The notes beneath the pieces were generated by a model. It made no database searches, was not told where the DNA came from, and saw only the letters and a list, made by a program, of their open reading frames with translations. A stretch of DNA of 64,000 nt from Arthrobacter sp. DNA4. GTDB lineage: Bacteria > Actinomycetota > Actinomycetes > Actinomycetales > Micrococcaceae. Shown piece after piece: positions 4,588 to 57,399 of the stretch. The translations under genes and the position numbers were made by a program. Position 1 is the stretch's first letter. The number at the start of each line of letters is the position of its first letter. The stretch covers positions 1,364,001-1,428,000 of the forward strand of contig NZ_CP101466.1 in assembly GCF_024362385.1 (NCBI RefSeq), in the 5' to 3' direction.

Positions 4588-6315
4588 CTAGATCCAGGAT
4601 GGCATCCACATCCGGACTTTCCAGTCGACGTACGGGATCACTTCGGCGGTCCAGATCGGGTAGAAGAATGCCGAGAGCAGCAATACCGCAGCAAGGAACA
4701 GGACCACCAGGTACAGGCCGGAGCGACGGCGCCACGGCGGATCCGAGGACCTTCCCAGCACCAGCCCCAGGCAGTACACCAGGGCCAGGACAAGGAACGG
4801 TTCAAAGGAGACCGCGTAGAAGTAGAACATGGTCCGCTCCGGATACATGAACCACGGCACGTAGCCCGCAGCGACGCCGGCCAGCACGGCCCCGGCGCGC
4901 CAGTCCCGGCGTCCCGCCCACCAGAACAGCAGGACCACCAGCGCGATGGCCGCCGGCCACCAGATCAGCGGGTTCCCGACCGACAGGATGGCGGAGGTGC
5001 ACTTGTCCACGTCACAGCCCGGGGTGCCCTGGGGCGGGGATTCATAGAAGAACGACGTGGGCCGCCCCATGACCAGCCAGCTCCAGGCGCTCGCCTGGTA
5101 AGGGTGCTCCGAACTCAGGCCCTGATGGAAGTTGTACGCTTCCAGGTGGTAGTGGACAAGGGACCTCACGGAGTCCGGGAGCCATCCCCATTCTGCCGAA
5201 GGATTGCTTTCCGCCCAATGGCGGAAGTAGGCGTTGTCCGACAGGAACCAGCCTGTCCAGGTCGCCGAGTAGACGATCCCTGCCACCGGGACCATGCCGA
5301 GGAACGCCGGGATGCCGTCCCGGATGGCTCCGCCGCTGATCCAGCCCCGGATGCCCGCCACCCGCCGGGCGTTGAGGTCCCAGAGCACGGTGAGGAGGCC
5401 AAAGCCGGCCAGGAAGAACAGGCCCGACCACTTGGTTCCCACCGCCAGGCCCATGCAGACCCCGGCGGCAACCCGCCACCAGCGCACCCCCAGCCATGGG
5501 CCCGTCAGCAGGGCCCGGGCCGGGGGCTGTCCGCCGTTCGCGGCAGCGGCGCGTGCCAGCCGGGCGGCCAGGCGGCGCCGCCCATCGTCGCGGTCCATCA
5601 GCAGGGCACCGAAGGCGGCGAGGATCCAGAACGTGAGGAAGATGTCCAGCAGCGACGTCCGGGACATCACCAGGTGGTGGCCGTCGACGGCGAGGAGCAG
5701 CCCCGCGGCGCCCGCCAGGGGAAGCGAGCGGAACAGTTTCAGGGCGATCAGGGAGACCAGCAGCACGGTGAGGGTGCCTGTGAGTGCTGCCGCGAAGCGC
5801 CAGCCAAAGGGGTTCTCCGGCCCGAACAGCCACATGCCGGCCGCAATCATCCATTTGCCCACCGGCGGATGGACCACATATTCGGGAGTGTTCAGCAGGA
5901 CATCGGGGTTCCCGGCGTTGAAGGAATCATTGGCTTTGTCCGGCCAGCTGCGTTCGTAGCCGCTGATGAGGTAGGAGTAGGCGTCCTTGACGTAGTACGT
6001 CTCGTCGAACACCAGCTTGTGCGGCACTTCGAGGCGGATGAACCGGAGGAGGCCGCCGGCCACGGCCGTGAGCACCGGGACCAGGATGTACCAGAGCCGG
6101 AGCGACGGCGGGTAGTCGCGCCAGGATGGTCCGGTACCGATCAGCCTGGTCTTCAGCGCCTCGGCCGTGAACGCTTCATTCGGCCGTCTGATCCAGGGGC
6201 GGCCTGCTTTCCCGCCGTTTTCCCCTGCAGTGGCGCCGGTGCCGGCAGGGGATGCCGCCGGGCTGGGTTTCCCGGCCCCGGCGGGCCGCGTCGAGGTCTG
6301 CGTCACGAGCCCCAT
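4588..6315 (-). CDS. pmt: polyprenyl-phosphate-mannose--protein mannosyltransferase (GT39, Pmt family)
   Basis: 575 residues from ATG 6315; a longer open frame upstream would run into the divergent rsmI promoter and is unlikely to be translated. Multi-pass membrane enzyme that O-mannosylates exported proteins, using polyprenyl-phosphate mannose. It has the family's extracytoplasmic acidic motif, FDETYY, after the first membrane helix, then LNTPEYVVHPPVGKW, and about ten hydrophobic segments. The N-terminal 50 residues are Ala/Pro-rich and cytoplasmic. The head-to-head arrangement with rsmI is conserved with Mycobacterium tuberculosis Rv1002c/Rv1003, which supports the assignment. Confidence 0.92.
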   Translation of the reverse strand: MGLVTQTSTRPAGAGKPSPAASPAGTGATAGENGGKAGRPWIRRPNEAFTAEALKTRLIGTGPSWRDYPPSLRLWYILVPVLTAVAGGLLRFIRLEVPHKLVFDETYYVKDAYSYLISGYERSWPDKANDSFNAGNPDVLLNTPEYVVHPPVGKWMIAAGMWLFGPENPFGWRFAAALTGTLTVLLVSLIALKLFRSLPLAGAAGLLLAVDGHHLVMSRTSLLDIFLTFWILAAFGALLMDRDDGRRRLAARLARAAAANGGQPPARALLTGPWLGVRWWRVAAGVCMGLAVGTKWSGLFFLAGFGLLTVLWDLNARRVAGIRGWISGGAIRDGIPAFLGMVPVAGIVYSATWTGWFLSDNAYFRHWAESNPSAEWGWLPDSVRSLVHYHLEAYNFHQGLSSEHPYQASAWSWLVMGRPTSFFYESPPQGTPGCDVDKCTSAILSVGNPLIWWPAAIALVVLLFWWAGRRDWRAGAVLAGVAAGYVPWFMYPERTMFYFYAVSFEPFLVLALVYCLGLVLGRSSDPPWRRRSGLYLVVLFLAAVLLLSAFFYPIWTAEVIPYVDWKVRMWMPSWI

Positions 6316-6360
6316 GCTACCTTTTGCGGCTGGAAGACCCGGCCGCAGTAGGCTTGGTGG

Positions 6361-7236
6361 GTGGACCCGAACCCCAGCCCCCTTCCCGAGCCCGCCACTT
6401 CGACGGCGGGACGGATCGTCCTTGCCGCCACTCCCATCGGGAACACCGGCGATGCCTCCGCCCGGCTGGTGGAACTGCTGGGCACCGCGGACATCGTGGC
6501 GGCAGAGGACACCCGGCGGCTCCACCGCCTGGTCCAAAGCCTGGGTGTTGCCGTTGCGGGCCGCGTTATCAGCTACCACGAGCACAATGAGGCCACCCGG
6601 ACGGCTGAGCTCCTGGACCAGGTCCGTGCAGGCAGCACGCTTCTGATGGTCACCGACGCCGGGATGCCTGCGGTGTCAGACCCCGGTTTCCGGCTGGTGG
6701 AGGGGGCCATCGCCGCGGGACTTCCGGTTACCGCTGTCCCCGGGCCGTCCGCGGTCCTCACGGCACTGGCACTGTCCGGCCTGCCCACCGACCGGTTCTG
6801 CTTTGAAGGATTCCTGCCCCGCAAGGCCGGTGAGAGGGCCTCGCGCCTCGCGGACCTTGCGGGGGAGCGGCGCACCATGGTGTTCTTCGAGGCACCGCAC
6901 CGGCTTGAAGCCATGCTGCGGGCCCTGCGGGAGAGGTTCGGCCCGGACCGGCCCATCGCAGTGTGCCGCGAACTGACCAAGACGTATGAGGAAGTCATCC
7001 GCGGCACCGTGGGCGAGCTCCTCCAGTGGGCTGAGGACAACGAGGTTCGCGGCGAGATTGCCGTAGTGCTTGGCGGCGCGCCCGAACAGGCGGCCGGGAC
7101 GCCGGAGGACCACGTTGCGGCCGTCAATGAACTGGTGGCCCAGGGCATCCGGCTGAAGGAGGCCGTGGCCGCCGTCGCCGAAGATGTCCGGGTCAGCAAG
7201 CGGGAGCTTTATTCAGCGGTCCTCGCCGCCCGCTAA
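6361..7236 (+). CDS. rsmI: 16S rRNA (cytidine(1402)-2'-O)-methyltransferase
   Basis: 291 residues from GTG 6361. Tetrapyrrole-methylase fold enzyme that methylates the ribose of C1402 in 16S rRNA using SAM. Visible family motifs: VLAATPIGNTGDAS near the N-terminus, AAEDTRRLHRL, SYHEHNE, VTDAGMPAVSDPGF, PGPSAVLTALALSGLP and FFEAPHRL. The start lies 45 bp from the divergent pmt start, so both genes share a promoter region. Length and motifs fit a complete, functional protein. Confidence 0.95.
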   Translation: MDPNPSPLPEPATSTAGRIVLAATPIGNTGDASARLVELLGTADIVAAEDTRRLHRLVQSLGVAVAGRVISYHEHNEATRTAELLDQVRAGSTLLMVTDAGMPAVSDPGFRLVEGAIAAGLPVTAVPGPSAVLTALALSGLPTDRFCFEGFLPRKAGERASRLADLAGERRTMVFFEAPHRLEAMLRALRERFGPDRPIAVCRELTKTYEEVIRGTVGELLQWAEDNEVRGEIAVVLGGAPEQAAGTPEDHVAAVNELVAQGIRLKEAVAAVAEDVRVSKRELYSAVLAAR

Positions 7237-7284
7237 GGCCCGTTAAGGCCCCGGCCGGTCCACTCCCGGGCCAGTGCTGCTGCT

Positions 7285-7300
7285 CTGTGCAGCTGCACAG
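7285..7300. promoter_or_regulatory. 16-bp perfect palindrome upstream of the aldehyde dehydrogenase gene
   Basis: CTGTGCAGCTGCACAG is perfectly self-complementary and lies in the 204-bp gap between rsmI and the succinate-semialdehyde dehydrogenase gene. A possible promoter, TTGGCC with 17 bases to TAATCA (7344-7372), follows it. It could be an operator or an rsmI terminator stem; only the symmetry and position support this. Confidence 0.3.
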
Positions 7301-7440
7301 CACGGCGGCGATTCCGCAGTGCGCAACGGCGTAGACCATGGGGTTGGCCCGCAGTAGTCTGGCTGTTAATCAGCCCCATGATCCCGGTCACTCCGGCCGC
7401 GGCGACGGGCTGCCACAACCCTACCGACGAGGGAGTCATC

Positions 7441-8940
7441 GTGACTGTCACTGCACAGCCGGCCGTTACCGCCGAGCGCGAAACCCGGCTTTTGGCCTCC
7501 GTTCCCACTGGGCTGCTCATCAACGGTGAGTGGCGCGACGCCGCGTCCGGCAAGACGTTCGACGTCGAGGATCCCGCCACCGGGAAGGTGCTGCTGAGCA
7601 TTGCCGACGCCGGTCCCGAAGATGGTGCGGCGGCCCTGGACGCTGCCGCGGCGGCCCAGGAGTCCTGGGCGAAGGTACCGCCCCGCGAACGCGGGGAAAT
7701 CCTCCGCCGGGCCTTCGACCTGGTGACGGAACGGGCCGAAGACTTCGCCCTCCTGATGACCCTGGAAATGGGCAAGCCGCTGGCCGAAGCCCGCGGCGAA
7801 GTGACGTACGGGGCCGAGTTCCTGCGCTGGTTCTCGGAGGAAGCAGTACGTGCCTTTGGGCGTTACTCGGTGTCGCCGGACGGCAAGTCCCGCCTGCTGG
7901 TGGCCAAGAAGCCGGTAGGCCCCTGCCTGCTGATCACCCCGTGGAACTTCCCGCTGGCCATGGCCACCCGCAAGATCGCGCCCGCCGTCGCTGCCGGCTG
8001 CACCATGGTGCTGAAGTCCGCAAACCTCACGCCGCTGACGTCCCAGCTGTTCGCCGCCGTCATGCAGGAGGCCGGCCTGCCCGCCGGTGTCCTCAACGTC
8101 ATCCCCACCTCCACGGCTGGGGCCACCACGGGACCGCTGATCAAGGATTCCCGCCTCCGCAAGCTGTCCTTCACCGGCTCCACCGAGGTTGGCCGCCGCC
8201 TGTTGGCCGATGCCTCCGAAAACGTTCTGCGCACCTCCATGGAGCTGGGCGGCAATGCCCCGTTCCTGGTCTTCGAGGACGCCGACCTGGATGCTGCCGT
8301 CACCGGCGCCATGGCCGCAAAGCTCCGCAACATGGGCGAGGCCTGCACCGCTGCCAACCGGTTCATCGTCCATGAGTCGGTGGCGGCCGAATTCGCCGAG
8401 AAGTTCGCCGCGAAGATGAAGGAAATGACTACCGCCCGGGGCACCGAACCCGAATCCAAGGTGGGCCCGCTGATCGACGGCAAGAGCCGGGACAAGGTGC
8501 ACGAGCTGGTCTCCGACGCCCTCGCCTCCGGTGCCAAGGCAGTCCTGGGCGGCGCTCCCGTGGAGGGCCCGGGCTACTTCTACCAGCCCACCATCCTCTC
8601 CGGCGTTTCCGAGGGGACCCGGATCCTGTCCGAGGAAATCTTCGGCCCGGTGGCCCCGATCATCACCTTCAGCAGCGAGGACGAGGCCGTCCGGCTGGCC
8701 AACAACACCGAATACGGGCTGGTGGCGTACGTCTTCACCAAGGACATCAACCGCGGTATCCGGATGGGCGAGCGGCTGGAAACCGGCATGCTCGGCCTGA
8801 ACGCCGGGGTCATCTCCAACGCTGCAGCACCTTTCGGTGGCGTGAAGCAGTCGGGCCTGGGCCGCGAAGGCGGCCTGGAAGGCATCGAGGAGTACCTCTA
8901 CACGCAGTACATCGGCATCGCCGACCCCTACGCCGGCTAG
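7441..8940 (+). CDS. gabD: NAD(P)-dependent succinate-semialdehyde dehydrogenase
   Basis: 499 residues. GTG 7441 is chosen because GAGGGA lies 7 bases upstream and residues after it (ETRLLASVPTGLLINGEW) match the family N-terminus; the frame is open further upstream but without homology. Oxidises succinate semialdehyde to succinate, the last step of GABA breakdown. It has the ALDH Rossmann region (ITPWNFPLAMATRKIAPA), LSFTGSTEVG, the general-base Glu in MELGGNAPF and the nucleophile Cys in MGEACTAANR. No aminotransferase or GABA permease lies beside it. A strong hairpin terminator follows. Confidence 0.9.
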   Translation: MTVTAQPAVTAERETRLLASVPTGLLINGEWRDAASGKTFDVEDPATGKVLLSIADAGPEDGAAALDAAAAAQESWAKVPPRERGEILRRAFDLVTERAEDFALLMTLEMGKPLAEARGEVTYGAEFLRWFSEEAVRAFGRYSVSPDGKSRLLVAKKPVGPCLLITPWNFPLAMATRKIAPAVAAGCTMVLKSANLTPLTSQLFAAVMQEAGLPAGVLNVIPTSTAGATTGPLIKDSRLRKLSFTGSTEVGRRLLADASENVLRTSMELGGNAPFLVFEDADLDAAVTGAMAAKLRNMGEACTAANRFIVHESVAAEFAEKFAAKMKEMTTARGTEPESKVGPLIDGKSRDKVHELVSDALASGAKAVLGGAPVEGPGYFYQPTILSGVSEGTRILSEEIFGPVAPIITFSSEDEAVRLANNTEYGLVAYVFTKDINRGIRMGERLETGMLGLNAGVISNAAAPFGGVKQSGLGREGGLEGIEEYLYTQYIGIADPYAG

Positions 8941-50062: not shown

Positions 50063-50881
50063 CTAGAGCCGGGCGATGATGTCAGCCAGCAGCCTGGAAA
50101 TGCGCGGGCCCGCTGCCTGGCCGGACTCGATCACTTCCTGGTGGCTGAGCGGCTGGGGGCTGATGCCTGCTGCAAGGTTGGTGACCAGCGAAATACCGAA
50201 CACCTCCATGCCGGCATGACGGCCTGCGATGGCCTCGAGCGCCGTCGACATGCCGATCAGGTCCGCACCGATCCGCTTGGCATACTGCACCTCTGCCGGC
50301 GTCTCATAGTGCGGGCCGGGGAACTGTGCGTACACGCCCTCGTCCAGGGTGGGGTCCACTTCCCGGCCCAGCCCGCGGATCCGCGGCGAATACAGGTCCG
50401 TCAGGTCCACGAACGTCGCGCCTTCCAGCGGGGAAGCGGCGGTGAGGTTGATGTGGTCCCGGATCAGTACCGGGGTGCCGGGGGCCCAGTCCTCATTGAG
50501 GCCGCCGCAGCCGTTGGTGAGGACAAGGGTGCTGCATCCGGCAGCCGCAGCGGTCCGGATGCCGTGCACCACGGCGCGGACGCCCTTGCCCTCGTAGTAG
50601 TGGGTCCGGGCGCCCAGGACCAGGGCGCGCTTGCCGGACGTGGTCAGCACGGAGCGGATGGTGCCAACGTGGCCCTCCACGGCGGGGGCGTGGAAGCCGG
50701 GAACCTCCTCGGCGGACAGGGTGGCGGTGGTCTCGCCGATCAGGTCTGCGGCCTCGCCCCACCCGGAGCCGAGAACCAGGGCGGTGTCATGGCGGTCCAC
50801 TCCAGTTTCTTCCGCAATGTAGTCCGCGGCGGCGCGGGCGGCGGCGAACGGGTCCGTGTTCAGGAAGTCTGTTGTACTCAC
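50063..50881 (-). CDS. punA: purine-nucleoside phosphorylase (trimeric type)
   Basis: 272 residues from GTG 50881. Cleaves inosine and guanosine with phosphate. Motifs: VLGSGWGEAADL at the phosphate site, GARTHYYEGKG, NGCGGLNEDWAPG and the purine-binding GPHYETPAEVQYAKRIGADLIGMSTALEAIAG. Upstream of and probably co-transcribed with the phosphohexomutase gene, consistent with nucleoside salvage. The divergent LpdA-like gene starts 98 bp away, matching the Rv3303c-Rv3308 region of mycobacteria. Confidence 0.93.
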   Translation of the reverse strand: MSTTDFLNTDPFAAARAAADYIAEETGVDRHDTALVLGSGWGEAADLIGETTATLSAEEVPGFHAPAVEGHVGTIRSVLTTSGKRALVLGARTHYYEGKGVRAVVHGIRTAAAAGCSTLVLTNGCGGLNEDWAPGTPVLIRDHINLTAASPLEGATFVDLTDLYSPRIRGLGREVDPTLDEGVYAQFPGPHYETPAEVQYAKRIGADLIGMSTALEAIAGRHAGMEVFGISLVTNLAAGISPQPLSHQEVIESGQAAGPRISRLLADIIARL

Positions 50882-50979
50882 CAGTACAAGTTATCCTGCC
50901 GCCCATGTTGCCCCGGTCACGGCAGGCCCGGAAAGCACCCTGGTTTCTTGGTGGTCGGGCCGTAAATGGGAGAGAATGG

Positions 50980-52401
50980 ATGACTGTGACTACGCATCCA
51001 GATTTCAGTTCCCCGCGGATCGCAATCCTGGGAGGTGGTCCCGGCGGATACGAAGCTGCCATGGTGGCCGCCTCACTGGGGGCGACCGTCACCGTCATCG
51101 AACGTGCCGGGCTCGGTGGATCCGCGGTGCTGACCGACGTAGTCCCCTCCAAGACCCTCATTGCCACGGCCGACCTCATGACCCGCGTCGCAGAGGCCGG
51201 CGAGCTGGGAGTGAAGTTCGACGTCGACGGCGGCGACTTCGTCCCGGTCATGCGCGCCGACCTCAAGCACATCAACGACCGCCTCCTTAACCTGGCCCGC
51301 AACCAGTCCCGGGACATCCGAGACGGCCTGGAGAAACAGGGCGTGCGCATCATCGAAGGCTCCGGCCGTCTCCTGGACAGCCACCGGATCGAGGTCCTGA
51401 CCGTCGACGGCACCGAAACCGTCGAAGCCGACACCATCCTGCTGGCGGTGGGCGCGCACCCCCGCGAGCTGGAAACGGCCCGCCCGGACGGCGAACGGAT
51501 CCTGAACTGGACGCAGATCTACAACCTCGACGAGCTGCCCGAGGAGCTCATTGTGGTGGGGTCCGGCGTCACCGGCGCCGAATTCGCGTCCGCCTACAAC
51601 GGCCTGGGTTCCAAGGTCACCCTGGTCTCCAGCCGTGACCGCGTGCTGCCGGGGTCAGACGTTGACGCCGCAGTGGTCCTGGAGGAAGTCTTTGAACGCC
51701 GCGGTGTGCGGGTCTTGTCCCGCTCCCGTGCCCAGACCGTGGAACGCACGGACGACGGCGTGGTGGTCACCCTCTCCGACGGCACCAAGGTGACGGGCAG
51801 CCACTGCCTCCTGTGCCTTGGCTCCATCCCCAACACGGCGGGGATTGGCCTTGAGGAGGCAGGCGTGGCCGTGAGCGAAAGCGGCCACATCAAGGTCGAC
51901 GGCGTCTCCCGGACCACGGCTCCTAACATTTACGCCGCCGGTGACTGCACCGGCGTCCTGCCGCTGGCCTCGGTGGCCGCCATGCAGGGCCGGATCGCGG
52001 TGGCGCACTTCATGGGCGACGGCGTCACCCCGCTCAAGCTCCACCAGGTGGCCTCCAACATCTTCACCTCACCGGAAATCGCGAATGTGGGTGTCTCAGA
52101 GGCCGAGATCGAGTCCGGCAAGTACCAGGCCGACGTCATCAAGCTCTCCCTGAAAAGCAACGCCCGCGCCAAGATGCGCAACGCCAAGGATGGGTTCGTG
52201 AAGATCTTCGCCCGGAAGGGCTCCGGCACGGTGATCGGCGGCGTGGTGGTCGGGCCCAACGCCTCCGAGCTGATCTTCCCCATTTCCATCGCGGTCAAGC
52301 AGAAGCTGCACGTGGACGACGTCGCCAGCACCTTCACCGTGTACCCGTCGCTCACCGGATCCATCTCCGAGGCAGCCCGCCGCCTGCACGTCCACATGTA
52401 A
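50980..52401 (+). CDS. lpdA: NAD(P)H-quinone dehydrogenase (LpdA-like flavoprotein without redox Cys pair)
   Basis: 473 residues from ATG 50980, with GGGAGA about 7 bases upstream. Pyridine nucleotide-disulphide oxidoreductase fold: FAD motif AILGGGPGGYEAAMVAASLG, NAD motif VVGSGVTGAEFASAYNGLG, FAD motif NIYAAGDCTGVLPLAS and a dimerisation domain. The CxxxxC redox pair of dihydrolipoamide dehydrogenases is replaced (GLGGSAVLTDVVPSK), as in M. tuberculosis LpdA (Rv3303c), which reduces quinones. So it is not a lipoamide dehydrogenase. Confidence 0.92.
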   Translation: MTVTTHPDFSSPRIAILGGGPGGYEAAMVAASLGATVTVIERAGLGGSAVLTDVVPSKTLIATADLMTRVAEAGELGVKFDVDGGDFVPVMRADLKHINDRLLNLARNQSRDIRDGLEKQGVRIIEGSGRLLDSHRIEVLTVDGTETVEADTILLAVGAHPRELETARPDGERILNWTQIYNLDELPEELIVVGSGVTGAEFASAYNGLGSKVTLVSSRDRVLPGSDVDAAVVLEEVFERRGVRVLSRSRAQTVERTDDGVVVTLSDGTKVTGSHCLLCLGSIPNTAGIGLEEAGVAVSESGHIKVDGVSRTTAPNIYAAGDCTGVLPLASVAAMQGRIAVAHFMGDGVTPLKLHQVASNIFTSPEIANVGVSEAEIESGKYQADVIKLSLKSNARAKMRNAKDGFVKIFARKGSGTVIGGVVVGPNASELIFPISIAVKQKLHVDDVASTFTVYPSLTGSISEAARRLHVHM

Positions 52402-52450: not shown

Positions 52451-53209
52451 ATGATTGGGCTTCCCCTTGCGGGAAACGCGCTGGTGCATGCCGGCATGGT
52501 GGGGCTGGGCATCGGTGCAGCCCTCTTGTTCTACGCCTATGAGAAGCGCCGCCGTGGCCTCACCGACCCCCGCTTGTGGCCCATCGCCGGTTTCGCCGTG
52601 GCGTTTGGGGGCATCGGCTCCCGCGTGCTCACCTGGGACGTGTCCCGGCAGGTGTCCCTGGCGGACTGGTGGGGCAACGGTGACCGGAGCATCCTCGCCG
52701 GCTTGGTGGGGGCGTGGTTCGGCGTCCACCTTGGCAAACGGCTGACAGGTTACAGGGAGTCCACGGGAGACCTGCTGGCGCCTGCGGTGGCCCTGGCCTT
52801 GGTTATCGGCCGGGTGGGCTGCCTCCTCACCGAGCTCCCGGGCACCCCCACCGGCGGATCCTGGGGCATCATCCTCACCCCTGCCCAGGCTGCGCTGGCC
52901 GGTGCCCCGGCGGGAGTGGCCCTCCATCCGTCCTTCGCCTACGAGATCGCCTTCCACCTGGCCGCCTTCGCCCTGATATGGCGTTACCGGGACGCCATGC
53001 CCCATCCCGGTGACCTCTTCATCTGTTTCGTCAGCGCCTACGCCGTCTTCAGGTTCTTCGTCGAGTTCGTCCGGGGAAACGAGGTCCTCTGGCTTGGTTT
53101 GAGCCGCCCCCAACTGTTCCTGCTGGCGGTCCTGCCTTTACTGGCCTGGCGCGTCCGGCGGGTGTTCAGGAAGCCCGTCCGCCCTGCACTGGAAGGGACC
53201 GTGGCATGA
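52451..53209 (+). CDS. prolipoprotein diacylglyceryl transferase-like membrane protein
   Basis: 252 residues from ATG 52451, with about seven hydrophobic segments. It keeps parts of the Lgt family pattern: VIGRVGCLLTELPG where Lgt has GRxGNFxNGELxG, HPSFAYE where Lgt has HPTQLYE, and RFFVEFVRGNE. It lacks the catalytic His of Lgt (SILAGLVG where Lgt has SFHGGLIG) and the conserved Asn of the signature. It is therefore unlikely to be the housekeeping Lgt, which should lie elsewhere, and may bind or transfer another lipid. First gene of a cluster with two small membrane proteins and a Tes-like radical SAM enzyme; its stop overlaps the next ATG. Confidence 0.8.
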   Translation: MIGLPLAGNALVHAGMVGLGIGAALLFYAYEKRRRGLTDPRLWPIAGFAVAFGGIGSRVLTWDVSRQVSLADWWGNGDRSILAGLVGAWFGVHLGKRLTGYRESTGDLLAPAVALALVIGRVGCLLTELPGTPTGGSWGIILTPAQAALAGAPAGVALHPSFAYEIAFHLAAFALIWRYRDAMPHPGDLFICFVSAYAVFRFFVEFVRGNEVLWLGLSRPQLFLLAVLPLLAWRVRRVFRKPVRPALEGTVA

Positions 53210-53562
53210 GCGGAGAAACCCCCGATGGGCCACTGCAGCCTCCTCCACGGCGGCAAGAGAACGCCCAGGACAACGAACCACGGGGCGGGTCCCTGGGGCT
53301 GGGGGCCGTGTTTGGCGCCGTGGCGCTGTACGCGGTCTACGTCCTGGGAACCATAGCCCAGGGGCCCTATGCCTGGTCCGCAAGCTTCCTGGCCGTGCCG
53401 GCGCCCTTCATTCCCATCGTCCTGTACCTGGCCGTGGCGATCGTGCTGGCCGCACGGCGCCGGACGTCGTTCTGGGGCGCAGGGCTGCTGATCGGCCTGG
53501 GCGCTTTTGTCTTGCTCGGCGGCGGTCTCTGCATCAGCTTCCTTGTCCAGGTCCGGGCTTGA
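53206..53562 (+). CDS. small membrane protein A of the radical SAM cluster
   Basis: 118 residues from ATG 53206, overlapping the Lgt-like stop (ATGA). A Pro/Gln-rich, hydrophilic 30-residue N-terminus is followed by three hydrophobic segments (about 36-53, 58-82, 90-115), with GAGLLIGLGAFVLLGGGLC near the end. No known domain. It is paralogous to the next gene (same layout, same C-terminal motif), a tandem duplication. Function unknown; location suggests a membrane subunit of the cluster. Confidence 0.8.
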   Translation: MSGETPDGPLQPPPRRQENAQDNEPRGGSLGLGAVFGAVALYAVYVLGTIAQGPYAWSASFLAVPAPFIPIVLYLAVAIVLAARRRTSFWGAGLLIGLGAFVLLGGGLCISFLVQVRA

Positions 53563-53563
53563 T

Positions 53564-53917
53564 ATGGACGATGACCAGGAGGCTCCGCCCCCTCCGAAGG
53601 AGCCCGACCGCCCGGGGCAGCAGGGGGAACCGCGGCGCGGCTACTTGGGCCCGGGCCTCACATTTGGCGCTTTGGCGTTGTACATCCTCTACCTTTGGGC
53701 GACAATCGGCGTCGGTGCGCCGAATTCCTGGGCGACCAGCATCCTGGCCGGACCCGCTGCCTTTGTCCCCATCGCCGTCTACCTGGGACTGGGCATTGCC
53801 CTTGCCGTGCGCCCCGATACCGCGCGGACCGGGGCGGGGATGCTGATTGGGCTGGGCATCTTCCTGTTGCTCGGCGGGGGACTGTGCGTGGGTGCCCTCG
53901 CACAGACCAGAGTCTGA
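53564..53917 (+). CDS. small membrane protein B, tandem paralog of A
   Basis: 117 residues from ATG 53564 (MDDDQEAPPPPKEPD), directly after the stop of gene A. It has the same acidic/Pro-rich start, three hydrophobic segments and the motif GAGMLIGLGIFLLLGGGLC. Identity with gene A is clear in the C-terminal half and low in the N-terminal tail. An AGAAGGAG after it serves the radical SAM gene. Function unknown. Confidence 0.8.
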   Translation: MDDDQEAPPPPKEPDRPGQQGEPRRGYLGPGLTFGALALYILYLWATIGVGAPNSWATSILAGPAAFVPIAVYLGLGIALAVRPDTARTGAGMLIGLGIFLLLGGGLCVGALAQTRV

Positions 53918-53933
53918 GAAGGAGCACTGATCA

Positions 53934-55520
53934 ATGAGGTCTCGAGAGTTGCCAGGGCCCGGCCAGCCGCTGCGGGGTGACCGGATCCACCGCTACGTCA
54001 CGGCGTTCTGCCCCCGTTGCCATGAAACCAACCCTCCACTCAGCGAGGTCCGGCGGCTGTCCGGGGCGCTGCTGATCCACGGCGGGCGGGTGTGGCTTGA
54101 ACGAGGTTGCCCGGACCACGGTTTGGTCCGCACGCTCTACGACGAGTCCCCGGAGATCCTTCGCTACCTGGAGAAATGGCAGGCGCCCACCAAGCAGCAC
54201 GTTCCTGACCGGGCAGGCAATTTCCGTCCCATCCCCGAGGCGTATGCCTACGGGCTTCCCGCCATGCAGACCCAGCACACCTGCATCCTGCTCCAGGACA
54301 TCATCGAGCACTGCAACCTGAAGTGCCCCACCTGTTTCACCGCCTCCGGACCGCAACTGCAGGGCGTGGCTCCGCTTGAGGAGGTGCTGGCCAATATTGA
54401 TACCCGCCTGGCACGCGAGAACAACCGCCTCGATGTGCTGATGTTGTCCGGCGGTGAACCAACGCTGTACCCGTACCTGGCGGAGCTGCTGGACGAACTC
54501 GTGGCCCGGCCGATCGTGCGGATCATGGTGAACAGCAACGGCATGCTGATGGCCACTGACGACGAACTGCTTGCCCTGTTGGCGCGGCACCGTGACCGCG
54601 TGGAGGTGTACCTCCAATACGATGGCTCTTCCAGGGAGGCATCAATCCACCACCGGGGCGGCGACCTGACCCGCTACAAGGATGCGGCCATCTCCCGCCT
54701 GTCCGCGGCCGGGATATTCACAACCCTGACCATGACGGCATCCCTGGGCGTCAACGACAGTGAGATCGGTGACGTGGTGATGCGCGCCCTGGAGACCCCG
54801 TACGTGGGCGGCGTGGCGCTGCAGCCCGTGTTTGGATCCGGGCGCGGGCACGGCATCGACCCCCTGGACCGGCTCACGCATACCGGCGTCCTGGACAGGC
54901 TCGAGTCACAAACCGGTGGTGTGGTCTCCTGGCACGACCTCACGGCACTGCCGTGCTCCCATCCGCACTGCGCATCGGTGGGCTACATGCTCAAGGACGA
55001 CGCCGGCACCTGGCGTTCACTGGCGGCGCTCGTAGGCCACGACCAATTGCTGTCGTGGCTCGAACTCAATCCTGACAGCATCGCCAACCGGATTGCTGAC
55101 AGCGCCATCCCGCTGGAACTGCGGAACCTGATGAAGACCTCTCTGCTGGACCTGCTGAGTGAGCAGTCGTCCCTGTCGCACCCACGGACCATGGATCTTT
55201 GGAAGAACATCTGCACGCAGTGCGATCTTGGCATCGGAACGCTGACCACTTTGGCGGCAGGCAAGCTTCCGGGCCAGCAGCAGCGCCTGCGCCGGTTCCT
55301 GGCCGAGCGGGTCACCCGGATCATGGTCAAGCCCTTCATGGACATGTCCACCATGATCGAGGAACGGCTCACCCAATGCTGCGTCCACGTCGGAACCAAG
55401 GGCGACGACGGGGAGCACCAGTGCGCGCCCTTCTGCGCTGTTCAGGCATGGCCTTCCCTTGCCCGGCAGCGGATGAGCACGGTGACCGGCGCACGGCTGC
55501 TTCCGGTGCGCCAGGTTTAG
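53934..55520 (+). CDS. radical SAM protein of the tetraether-synthase (Tes/MJ0619)-like family
   Basis: 528 residues from ATG 53934, with GAAGGAG upstream. The radical SAM cluster motif is CNLKCPTC (residues 127-134), with SGGEPT and QYDGSS following. An N-terminal metal-binding region has FCPRCHE (C26, C29) and RGCPDHG (C59), and further Cys groups lie in LPCSHPHC, NICTQC and, at the C-terminus, TQCCVHVGT and HQCAPFC. This layout matches archaeal Tes, which joins lipid chains by C-C bonds, and its bacterial homologs. Substrate here is unknown. The Lgt-like and membrane proteins next to it suggest a membrane lipid. No B12-binding domain is seen. Confidence 0.85.
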   Translation: MRSRELPGPGQPLRGDRIHRYVTAFCPRCHETNPPLSEVRRLSGALLIHGGRVWLERGCPDHGLVRTLYDESPEILRYLEKWQAPTKQHVPDRAGNFRPIPEAYAYGLPAMQTQHTCILLQDIIEHCNLKCPTCFTASGPQLQGVAPLEEVLANIDTRLARENNRLDVLMLSGGEPTLYPYLAELLDELVARPIVRIMVNSNGMLMATDDELLALLARHRDRVEVYLQYDGSSREASIHHRGGDLTRYKDAAISRLSAAGIFTTLTMTASLGVNDSEIGDVVMRALETPYVGGVALQPVFGSGRGHGIDPLDRLTHTGVLDRLESQTGGVVSWHDLTALPCSHPHCASVGYMLKDDAGTWRSLAALVGHDQLLSWLELNPDSIANRIADSAIPLELRNLMKTSLLDLLSEQSSLSHPRTMDLWKNICTQCDLGIGTLTTLAAGKLPGQQQRLRRFLAERVTRIMVKPFMDMSTMIEERLTQCCVHVGTKGDDGEHQCAPFCAVQAWPSLARQRMSTVTGARLLPVRQV

Positions 55521-55529
55521 GGAGGATTC

Positions 55530-55904
55530 ATGGACCCGGCCTCTGATGCCCGGCGCATTGCTGGAGGACCCAAGCCGTCCCAACTGGTGCGCCGACACGC
55601 CGCAGCGCACTCCACCCCGCAGGGTCCGGGCACCCCCGCACCCACCGGCCAGGCACCGTATGATCCGCTCCGGTTGTGCATTTTTGCCACAGTTGCGCTG
55701 CTGGGGTGGCTGGCGGGACCTGCCGCACTGGCGGTCTTCGCCGGCCTTGGGTTTGCGGGGTACTGGAAGGCAAGGCGGCGGGGCCTGGCACGGTCCAAAT
55801 GCTTCCTGCGCGACACGCGGCTCGTGCTCACTTATTTGGGTGCCCTCCTCACCGCGGGCGCTTACGGAGTCTACGTATTGGCGGGGCAAATATTCGGGCT
55901 GTGA
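55530..55904 (+). CDS. small membrane protein C of the radical SAM cluster
   Basis: 124 residues from ATG 55530, with GGGAGGA upstream and 9 bp after the radical SAM stop. A 45-residue Pro/Ala-rich N-terminus precedes two or three hydrophobic segments (about 48-75 and 96-122) and a basic loop (KARRRGLARSK). It is not obviously a paralog of A and B. No known domain; probably the last gene of the cluster, since a convergent aldehyde dehydrogenase gene follows. Confidence 0.75.
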   Translation: MDPASDARRIAGGPKPSQLVRRHAAAHSTPQGPGTPAPTGQAPYDPLRLCIFATVALLGWLAGPAALAVFAGLGFAGYWKARRRGLARSKCFLRDTRLVLTYLGALLTAGAYGVYVLAGQIFGL

Positions 55905-55945: not shown

Positions 55946-57399
55946 CTAGAACGGGTACGGGGCGATGTCCGGTCGCATGGTGAGCCACTGGATCTCGGTG
56001 AACGATTCCATGTTGGCGTGGTGGCCGCCGATCCGCGAGCCGTTGCCTGAGTTCTTCGTTCCGCCAAACGGGGAGTTCGCCTCATCGGAGACCGTCTGTT
56101 CGTTGATGTGGACCTTCCCGGAGTCCAGCCGGTCGGCGATGGTCATGGCCAGTCCGACGTCGCCCAGGATCCCGATGGACAGGCCGTACTCATTGTCGTT
56201 GGCCAGCGCCACAGCCTCATCCACGGTGGAGAACTTCATCACCGGGGCCACGGGGCCGAAGATTTCGTCCTTCCAGGCAGGACTGTCAGTGTCCAGGTCT
56301 ACCAGCACGGCGGGCTTGTAGAACCGGCCATCGTGGGTTCCCCCGGCGGCGAGCCGGGCGCCCGCCTGGACCGCGTCCTGGACGATCCCGTCCACCCGCT
56401 GCAGCTGGCGCTCATCAATGACCGGCCCCAGCGCCACGGTGCCGCTCTTCGGATCTCCCACGGGCAGGTGGGCCGCCTTCTCCGACAGGGCGGCAACGTA
56501 GTCGTCGTAGATGTCCTCATGCACGATGTGGCGTCCGGCAGCCATGCAGATCTGGCCCTGGTGCATGAACGAGCCGAACGCCGCCGCGGAGGCCGCCTTG
56601 GCCAGGTCGGCGCCGGGGAGCACGATGAGCGCATTGTTGCCGCCGAGTTCAAGGTGGGCACGCTTGAGCAGGCGGTACCGTTTCACCGATCTTCCGGTAC
56701 CGCCGTCGATCCCGTGAAAGCGATCACGCGGACCTCGGGGGCTTCGACGACGGCGGCTCCGATGTCGGCGCCGCCGGGCAGCAGGGAGAGCAGGCCCGGC
56801 GGAAGCCCGGCCTCCTCGAAGATGCGCATCACGGTCACGCCGCCGCAGACCGCGGTCCGCGGGTCCGGCTTGAGCAGCACGGCGTTACCCAATGCCAGGG
56901 CAGGGGCCACGGCGCGGATGGAGAGGATCAGCGGGAAGTTGAACGGCGCGATGACAGAGACAACACCCACCGGACGGCGCCGGGCAAAGGACCAGCGGTT
57001 TTCATTGGACGTCAGCACGTCACCGGCAGGGAGCGAGGGCAGCGCCGACGCGTCGTAGCATTCGTTGGCTGCGATATGCGTCTCCAGCCCTGCCTTGGGC
57101 GGAATGCCGCCTGATTCGCGCACAATCCAGTCCTGGACCTCGGCAGCGTGCTCCTCCCAGAGCTGTCCGGCGCGGCGCAGTACCGCTGCCCGGTCCTCGG
57201 GGTTGCGGGCAGCCCATTCCTTTTGCGCCTTCGCGGCGGCGGTTGCGGCTTCGCGGACGTCCGCCACGGAAGCCACGCCATAGCTCCCCAGCTGCCCACC
57301 GGTAGCCGGTTCCATGCTGGGGGCGGTCCCACCGCCGCCCGCCCGCCAGCCGTTGAGGTAGATTTTGCCTTCCCAGAGGGCGGAGTCGAGCAGGGACAT
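55946..57399 (-). pseudogene. aldehyde dehydrogenase (benzaldehyde/vanillin dehydrogenase-like) split by a frameshift
   Basis: The N-terminal frame (57399-56683) encodes MSLLDSALWEGKIYLNGW through the NAD-binding PFNFPLILSIRAVAPA and stops after FTGSTAVPEDR. The C-terminal frame (from 56686) continues with LLKRAHLELGGNNA, the catalytic Cys in HQGQICMAAGR and the rest of the protein to 55946. Together they make one ALDH of normal length (about 480 residues). The break lies at 56690-56705, where GGTACCG occurs twice; more than one base seems changed. The halves overlap by GTGA, so coupled translation is formally possible, but neither half is a whole enzyme. Either a recent pseudogene or a sequence error. 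Confidence 0.8.

Follow-up and report, generated by a model that had tools for sequence, protein, structure and literature searches.

Among the described enzymes closest to the system reported here are Tes, which joins lipid tails, and Lgt, which works at the outer face of the membrane, the location of the lipobox cysteine in ordinary pre-lipoproteins. For E. coli Lgt, residues Y26, H103, R143, N146, G154 and R239 are reported as required, with R143 and R239 positioning phosphatidylglycerol, and G145, G154, Y235 and R246 are reported as essential; the same report describes H103 as not strictly conserved (Y, W or F are possible) and N146 as a position that may be Cys in distant Lgt proteins (PMC13251419). 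Tes variants at Met439 and Tyr459 are reported to remain active, and the earlier assignment of MJ0619 as a pterin methylase could not be confirmed (PMC9433317). Bacterial homologues of Tes have been proposed, as yet unproven, to make membrane-spanning lipids (PMC8941075, PMC11868695). Here we describe a five-gene cluster in a 64,000-nucleotide stretch of the Arthrobacter sp. DNA4 genome (contig NZ_CP101466.1; hereafter the window), which pairs a divergent Lgt-like protein and a radical S-adenosylmethionine (SAM) protein of the Tes/TrsS superfamily with three small membrane proteins. We tentatively read this cluster as a mobile lipid-modification module that has two enzymes at its core and its own small membrane protein, and that may lead to lipidation of a cysteine in a G-x-C motif, a reading that we regard as possible rather than probable.

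The five genes all run rightward (positions 52451-55904 of the window), with successive spacings of -4, +1, +16 and +9 bases:

52451..53209, + strand: Lgt-like membrane protein, 252 amino acids (Pfam LGT, 83.6 bits; residues compared with E. coli Lgt)
53206..53562, + strand: small membrane protein 1, 118 amino acids; final helix ends GGGLC, with a tail of 9 residues
53530-53532, + strand: codon of Cys109 of small protein 1 (counted by hand)
53564..53917, + strand: small membrane protein 2, 117 amino acids, paralogue of small protein 1; ends GGGLC, with a tail of 9 residues
53885-53887, + strand: codon of Cys108 of small protein 2 (counted by hand)
53934..55520, + strand: radical SAM protein of the Tes/TrsS superfamily, 528 amino acids (Pfam, NCBIfam and PDB matches, alignment)
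55530..55904, + strand: small membrane protein 3, 124 amino acids, with motifs DPLRLC and CxLRDTRL

The preliminary description of this DNA had reported five tightly spaced rightward genes with gaps of -4 to 16 bases, among them an Lgt-family membrane protein and two tandem paralogous small membrane proteins. These coordinates and gene descriptions hold, with an E-value of 1.8e-23 for the match of the Lgt-like protein to Pfam LGT (gathering cut-off 24.9 bits) and 53-55% identity between small proteins 1 and 2 across approx. 100 residues. None of the three small proteins matched a Pfam or NCBIfam family at E <= 0.1. As a canonical Lgt (212 bits) is encoded elsewhere in the same genome, apart from the cluster, the Lgt-like gene is not the housekeeping Lgt gene.

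With the radical SAM protein as query, 40 loci were identified in species genomes, all with actinobacterial titles; the closest relatives in the genome collection came from Arthrobacter and Pseudarthrobacter. A same-strand Lgt-like gene was located within 3.2 kb in 38 of the 40 loci (within 1.3 kb in 37); in the two others, either the contig begins too late (L009) or the radical SAM gene is a fragment (L040). Among 396 Actinomycetota genomes, 23 matched the radical SAM profile (threshold E <= 1e-30), 10 of these at family level (two in pieces, G124 and G162) and the others with at most 260 bits, and Lgt-like matches of at least 262 bits were found in the identical 10 genomes, the next Lgt scoring 140 bits. 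Among 118 genomes of the Mycobacterium group (a single genus, whose name we infer from a match position common to the M. branderi plasmid), family-level radical SAM matches were present in 31 (one split, G460). Lgt-like matches of at least 307 bits were present in those 31 and in one more (G402), where the assembly is 70% complete and the intact match lies 697 bases from the end of its contig; the comparison of 31 with 31 genomes leaves out G402 as well as G477, which has an Lgt-like fragment interrupted by a stop and only a distant radical SAM match. Among 149 Micrococcaceae genomes, both sets comprised the same 13 genomes. Across these three samples, which overlap (G000 is in two, as are G038, G325 and G361), the pairs were always on one strand and 53-1082 bases apart, with the Lgt-like gene upstream in 10 of 10 Actinomycetota, 31 of 31 Mycobacterium-group and 6 of 13 Micrococcaceae genomes. 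The co-occurrence check proposed at the outset thus found the two genes as neighbours in the same 10, 31 and 13 genomes. These matching sets rule out chance adjacency, and the gene content of the genomes compared indicates that the Lgt-like and radical SAM genes are inherited together as a unit.

The module is present in many soil actinobacteria as well as mycobacteria, and its spread extends beyond Micrococcaceae. Its patchy occurrence within genera, together with plasmid-borne copies of the enzyme pair in M. avium and M. branderi, points to horizontal movement. The annotation of these two plasmid copies lists a prolipoprotein diacylglyceryl transferase family protein, a radical SAM protein and hypothetical proteins. 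Arthrobacter sp. UNC362MFTsu5.1 carries a second locus (L042, 6857-8302), where an Lgt-like gene and a small protein gene lie by a truncated radical SAM gene.

The third component of the module is a small membrane protein in which Arg or Lys precedes the final membrane helix, this helix ends in G-x-C and a short tail follows; the tandem small proteins 1 and 2 both belong to this near-universal component. Under a rule specifying a mean hydropathy of at least 1.5 over 17 residues, a tail of 3-25 residues, Arg or Lys before the helix, a limit of 700 bases and the strand of the module, 63 of 69 loci passed, which corresponds to 59 of 64 distinct loci once five duplicates (L117-L121) were taken off. 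Only 3 of 81 control windows of equal width elsewhere in the same loci passed, as did 3 of the 69 loci when the opposite strand was considered. The tail comprised 5-13 residues in 74 of the 75 G-x-C peptides counted (a set that includes a few likely false ones, e.g., one each in L005 and L018), and Gly occupied position -2 relative to Cys in 68 of the 75. In two further loci (L016 and L033), a G-x-C protein is present just outside the rule. Near the distant radical SAM genes, a G-x-C protein was found within 1.5 kb in 1 of 13 (that of Persicobacter, see below), and 12 other Lgt loci, taken whole and on both strands, yielded two rule matches, neither with Gly at -2.

Loci L034, L035 and L037 encode single-helix G-x-C mini-proteins of 37-39 residues upstream of the Lgt-like gene. 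The mini-genes of L034 and L035 differ by 9 synonymous and 13 non-synonymous codon changes of 39. A core consisting of the two enzymes alone was given up once these mini-proteins appeared in loci that had seemed to lack the third part. Small protein 3 is frequent in module loci and not universal; it was rejected as an essential component, as its profile finds none in L034, L035, L037, L071-L073, L111 and L112.

The Lgt-like protein is far from canonical Lgt, with a best score of 58.4 bits against the NCBIfam Lgt equivalog cut-off of 334. In an alignment of 26 family rows (E. coli Lgt numbering; the E151 column is ambiguous), R143, G145, G154, Y235, R239, E243 and R246 were kept in all 26, Y26 was replaced by His and N146 by Cys in all 26 (His13 and Cys124 of the protein described here), and H103 was replaced by Leu in 25 and by Val in one. 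The canonical Lgt of this same genome has Trp at the H103 position. One way to read these replacements is that the Lgt-like protein is no longer a transferase, and that its role is confined to binding phosphatidylglycerol or presenting it to the radical SAM enzyme. Y26, H103 and N146, all three reported as required in E. coli Lgt, are indeed replaced while R143 and R239 stay, and MSMEG_5408, a second Lgt of M. smegmatis carrying Y26H and N146C, is presumed to be of low activity (PMC13251419). We nevertheless consider such a loss improbable: G145, G154, Y235 and R246 are conserved in 26 of 26 rows, which is more than binding alone should need, L. interrogans Lgt with N146C is reported to be partly functional (PMC13251419), and the invariant Cys124 and His13 could themselves be catalytic. 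The Y26H and N146C signature of MSMEG_5408 also suggests this protein as a member of the Lgt-like family, although membership is a guess drawn from its reported residues. Another actinobacterial Lgt group (L100-L109) scores 120-140 bits against the Lgt-like family profile; those of its members that were aligned (L100, L101, L105 and L109) have N146 replaced by Cys, but Tyr26 is kept and position 103 is Tyr.

The radical SAM protein matched Pfam Radical_SAM (7.4e-19) and the HMPTM zinc ribbon (2.3e-10). Its sole strong match in the PDB was the Tes structure 7TOL/7TOM (4e-27; 5.8e-45 with a profile), with SkfB as a weaker profile match (6.5e-7). Scores against the NCBIfam models were well below the cut-offs, i.e., 135.8 bits for Tes (NF045702; cut-off 450; 145 and 162 bits for two other members, as compared to 744 for MjTes itself) and 178.2 bits for TrsS (NF045646; cut-off 490; 196 and 205 bits for two other members), the latter being the best score of the family. 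In trees, the family formed a clade of its own (100/100), apart from Tes (also 100/100) and from other relatives. When 39 family rows were aligned with 30 Tes and 15 other rows, the rubredoxin-like site of Tes (C9/C12/C33/H36) and the radical SAM CX3CX2C motif were kept in 39 of 39 family rows, as were the cysteines corresponding to Tes C338, C455 and C470, which their conservation marks as putative ligands of a C-terminal cluster. In the protein described here, these sites are C26/C29/C59/H62, C127/C131/C134 and C346/C482/C501, respectively. The histidines of the SHxHC (two His) and CxxH (one His) motifs are likewise present in 39 of 39 family rows and in 26-30 of 30 Tes rows, while most other relatives differ at the positions displayed. 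On the other hand, the N-terminal [Fe4S4] ligands of Tes (C73/C77/C80) occur in none of the 39 family rows (the His83 position is His in 7), and Met439 and Tyr459, both conserved in archaeal Tes, are replaced by Lys and Val in all 39. Two further cysteines, C117 and C341, are common to the family and TrsS. Scores, residues and trees thus rule out a plain Tes or plain TrsS identity, and on these comparisons the family is a deep branch of the Tes/TrsS superfamily, distinct from Tes.

The preliminary description had called this protein Tes-like, and had named grouping with peptide-modifying enzymes as one outcome that would speak against its idea. The superfamily and the rubredoxin-like and C-terminal motifs were borne out, and the protein does not group with peptide-modifying enzymes; an identity with Tes itself fell away (136 versus 450 bits, a separate clade and missing N-terminal cluster cysteines). 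In peptide-maturase clusters, small, variable and often duplicated cysteine-bearing proteins are encoded beside a radical SAM gene. As proteins of just this kind adjoin the radical SAM gene here, the G-x-C proteins could be precursors that the radical SAM enzyme modifies (e.g., by a cysteine cross-link) and whose product the Lgt-like protein anchors or exports. This appears distinctly unlikely, given that the radical SAM protein groups with Tes/TrsS and not with peptide maturases, that the cysteine is predicted on the membrane side opposite the cytosolic radical SAM enzyme, and that Pfam and NCBIfam scans reported no match to a leader-binding domain.

The same trio was also found outside the actinobacteria, as three overlapping genes on plasmid pPP1 of Persicobacter psychrovividus (Bacteroidota; L116):

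pPP1, 5262-6008: Lgt-like protein
pPP1, 5998-7392: radical SAM protein
pPP1: G-x-C protein, 59 amino acids, ending IGTGIC-GSLLS

The Persicobacter Lgt-like protein shows Y26H, H103M and N146C and keeps R143 and R239; its best plasmid matches, self excluded, were the three module members among plasmids. It branched as sister to the actinobacterial family (100/100 against the 11 other Lgts used), as did the radical SAM protein (96/95), with a long branch flagged in both cases. By eye, the N-terminal cluster ligands are present in the radical SAM protein of Persicobacter, while its C-terminal cluster cysteines are replaced, so that a different auxiliary cluster would be absent in each lineage and not all members can use a Tes-type mechanism. 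Direct repeats of 187 bases (99% identical; 4755-4941 and 7926-8112) flank the Persicobacter operon; they could mark insertion of the operon or represent a repeat common in the Persicobacter genome.

These data also bear on whether the module serves lipid synthesis only. In that case, the radical SAM enzyme would couple the tails of two phospholipids and the Lgt-like enzyme would process the headgroup or glycerol of phosphatidylglycerol, giving a novel lipid that perhaps spans the membrane, with the small proteins acting as scaffolds. In favour of this, no solved relative is closer than Tes, all 39 family rows agree with Tes at the C-terminal cysteines and the SHxHC/CxxH histidines, and membrane-spanning lipids are among the proposed, unproven products of bacterial Tes homologues (PMC8941075, PMC11868695). 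Against this, the family is far from Tes, the Persicobacter member is without the C-terminal cluster cysteines, and a cysteine-ended membrane protein at nearly every locus is left unexplained; overall, we judge this explanation unlikely.

In the reading that we prefer, the positive-inside rule, applied to the Arg or Lys before the helix, would place the G-x-C cysteine at the outer face of the membrane; as this is the face where Lgt works, the Lgt-like enzyme would be the probable lipidating enzyme. It would bind phosphatidylglycerol at the outer face and attach the diacylglyceryl group from this lipid to the cysteine of the G-x-C motif. Working from the inner face, the radical SAM enzyme would alter alkyl chains, either those of the donor lipid or those on the lipidated protein; in its boldest version, this step would be a Tes-like coupling of two chains. 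Judged rather than computed, the likelihoods of the parts differ: the Lgt-like protein probably acts on phosphatidylglycerol; a lipid as the substrate of the radical SAM enzyme has somewhat better than even prospects; for the G-x-C cysteine as acceptor, the balance tips slightly to the negative; and coupling of two chains by the radical SAM enzyme is doubtful. The full pathway, in which the radical SAM enzyme would cross-link phospholipid tails, possibly across the membrane, and the Lgt-like enzyme would move the diacylglyceryl unit thus cross-linked onto the cysteine of the G-x-C motif, seems quite improbable. The lipidation reading is supported by the matching genome sets, the near-universality of the G-x-C protein, the mini-proteins, the Persicobacter trio, the kept R143 and R239, the placement in the Tes superfamily with kept metal sites and Tes-like histidines, and a neighbouring PEMT/ICMT-type methyltransferase in some loci.

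Several points weigh against the lipidation reading. The G-x-C rule was defined after examples had been seen, and no G-x-C protein was found in L074, L075 and L079 (all from one genus). Of the 75 peptides, 10 have Gly or Ala and none has Ser at position -1, and by these residues the G-x-C motif is not a lipobox. The codon changes between the mini-genes, a weak test, do not by themselves prove the mini-proteins to be genes. The actinobacterial radical SAM proteins are without the N-terminal cluster cysteines and have Lys and Val for Met439 and Tyr459, and the Persicobacter member has lost the C-terminal ones. In addition, replacement of N146 by Cys is known from other Lgt proteins, H103 is variable, and the function that L. 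interrogans Lgt with N146C retains is reported as partial (PMC13251419). The product and activity of the module are a proposal from its genes. As to the earlier suggestion that the cluster makes an unusual lipid or modifies a lipid-anchored product, a role in lipid modification is still the best guess. Three of the positions that E. coli Lgt is reported to need are altered in the Lgt-like protein.

Membership of the PEMT/ICMT-type family includes phospholipid methyltransferases. Genes for a membrane methyltransferase of this type and for another, unassigned membrane protein lie directly upstream of the module in L034 (5906-7041), L035 (2779-3906) and L076 (7316-8610), while in L037 the gene caller found only the membrane protein gene there. 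No further conserved partner emerged, as no neighbour cluster was present in more than 4 of 29 loci with a home-made gene caller that failed on some AT-richer loci. In the window, a pyridine nucleotide-disulphide oxidoreductase gene (50872-52401, + strand) ends 49 bases before the Lgt-like gene; among the loci that were gene-called, relatives on the matching side were found only in L003 and L012. Downstream, an aldehyde dehydrogenase (PF00171; 55946-57399, - strand) is split into two overlapping open reading frames in different frames (55946-56686, profile positions 228-460; 56683-57399, profile positions 1-217), which represents either a frameshift or a sequencing error. Phage cargo was rejected, as no relative was confirmed in viral contigs (two scans) or phage records (tblastn with the radical SAM protein), and a defence system was rejected as well, as PADLOC gave only weak viperin matches to the common radical SAM core (34 and 23 bits).

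Full-text searches of the open-licence PMC literature, judged by title and start of abstract, yielded no description of the module. The preliminary description knew of no pathway with this gene set in Micrococcaceae, and this agrees with our searches, except that the module is not special to that family. The three-part system appears to be undescribed, while its enzymes are divergent members of known families. If the module modifies lipids, aerobic bacteria would gain a radical enzyme for inert alkyl chains; this would bear on the range of bacteria that produce coupled lipids, and would give a reason why some second Lgt paralogues do not behave as Lgt. If true, the full proposal would mean that proteins are lipidated with an anchor that is covalently coupled or spans the membrane.

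Compared to known systems, the module resembles Mss, by description only, in that Mss is a bacterial enzyme credited with fatty acid coupling, but Mss is treated as distinct from bacterial Tes homologues (PMC11868695). MSMEG_5408, compared by published residues only, shares the reported Y26H and N146C (PMC13251419). The Lgt-like protein shares Pfam LGT and residues R143, G145, G154, Y235, R239, E243 and R246 with E. coli Lgt (5AZB); it differs in Y26 (His), N146 (Cys) and H103 (Leu or Val), in scoring under the equivalog cut-offs and in having a radical SAM gene as partner. TrsS, a (seleno)protein, gives the radical SAM family its best NCBIfam score and shares the extra cysteines C117 and C341; this score is nevertheless far under the cut-off of 490, and two related plasmid loci with annotated neighbours adjoin a methyltransferase gene rather than an Lgt-like gene. 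With Tes (GDGT-MAS; MJ0619, 7TOL), the family shares the superfamily, the domain order, the rubredoxin-like site, the radical SAM cluster, the C-terminal cysteines and the nearby histidines. Unlike Tes, it forms its own clade, is without the N-terminal cluster cysteines and has Lys for Met439 and Val for Tyr459, and its radical SAM gene is, in the samples analyzed, always beside an Lgt-like gene.

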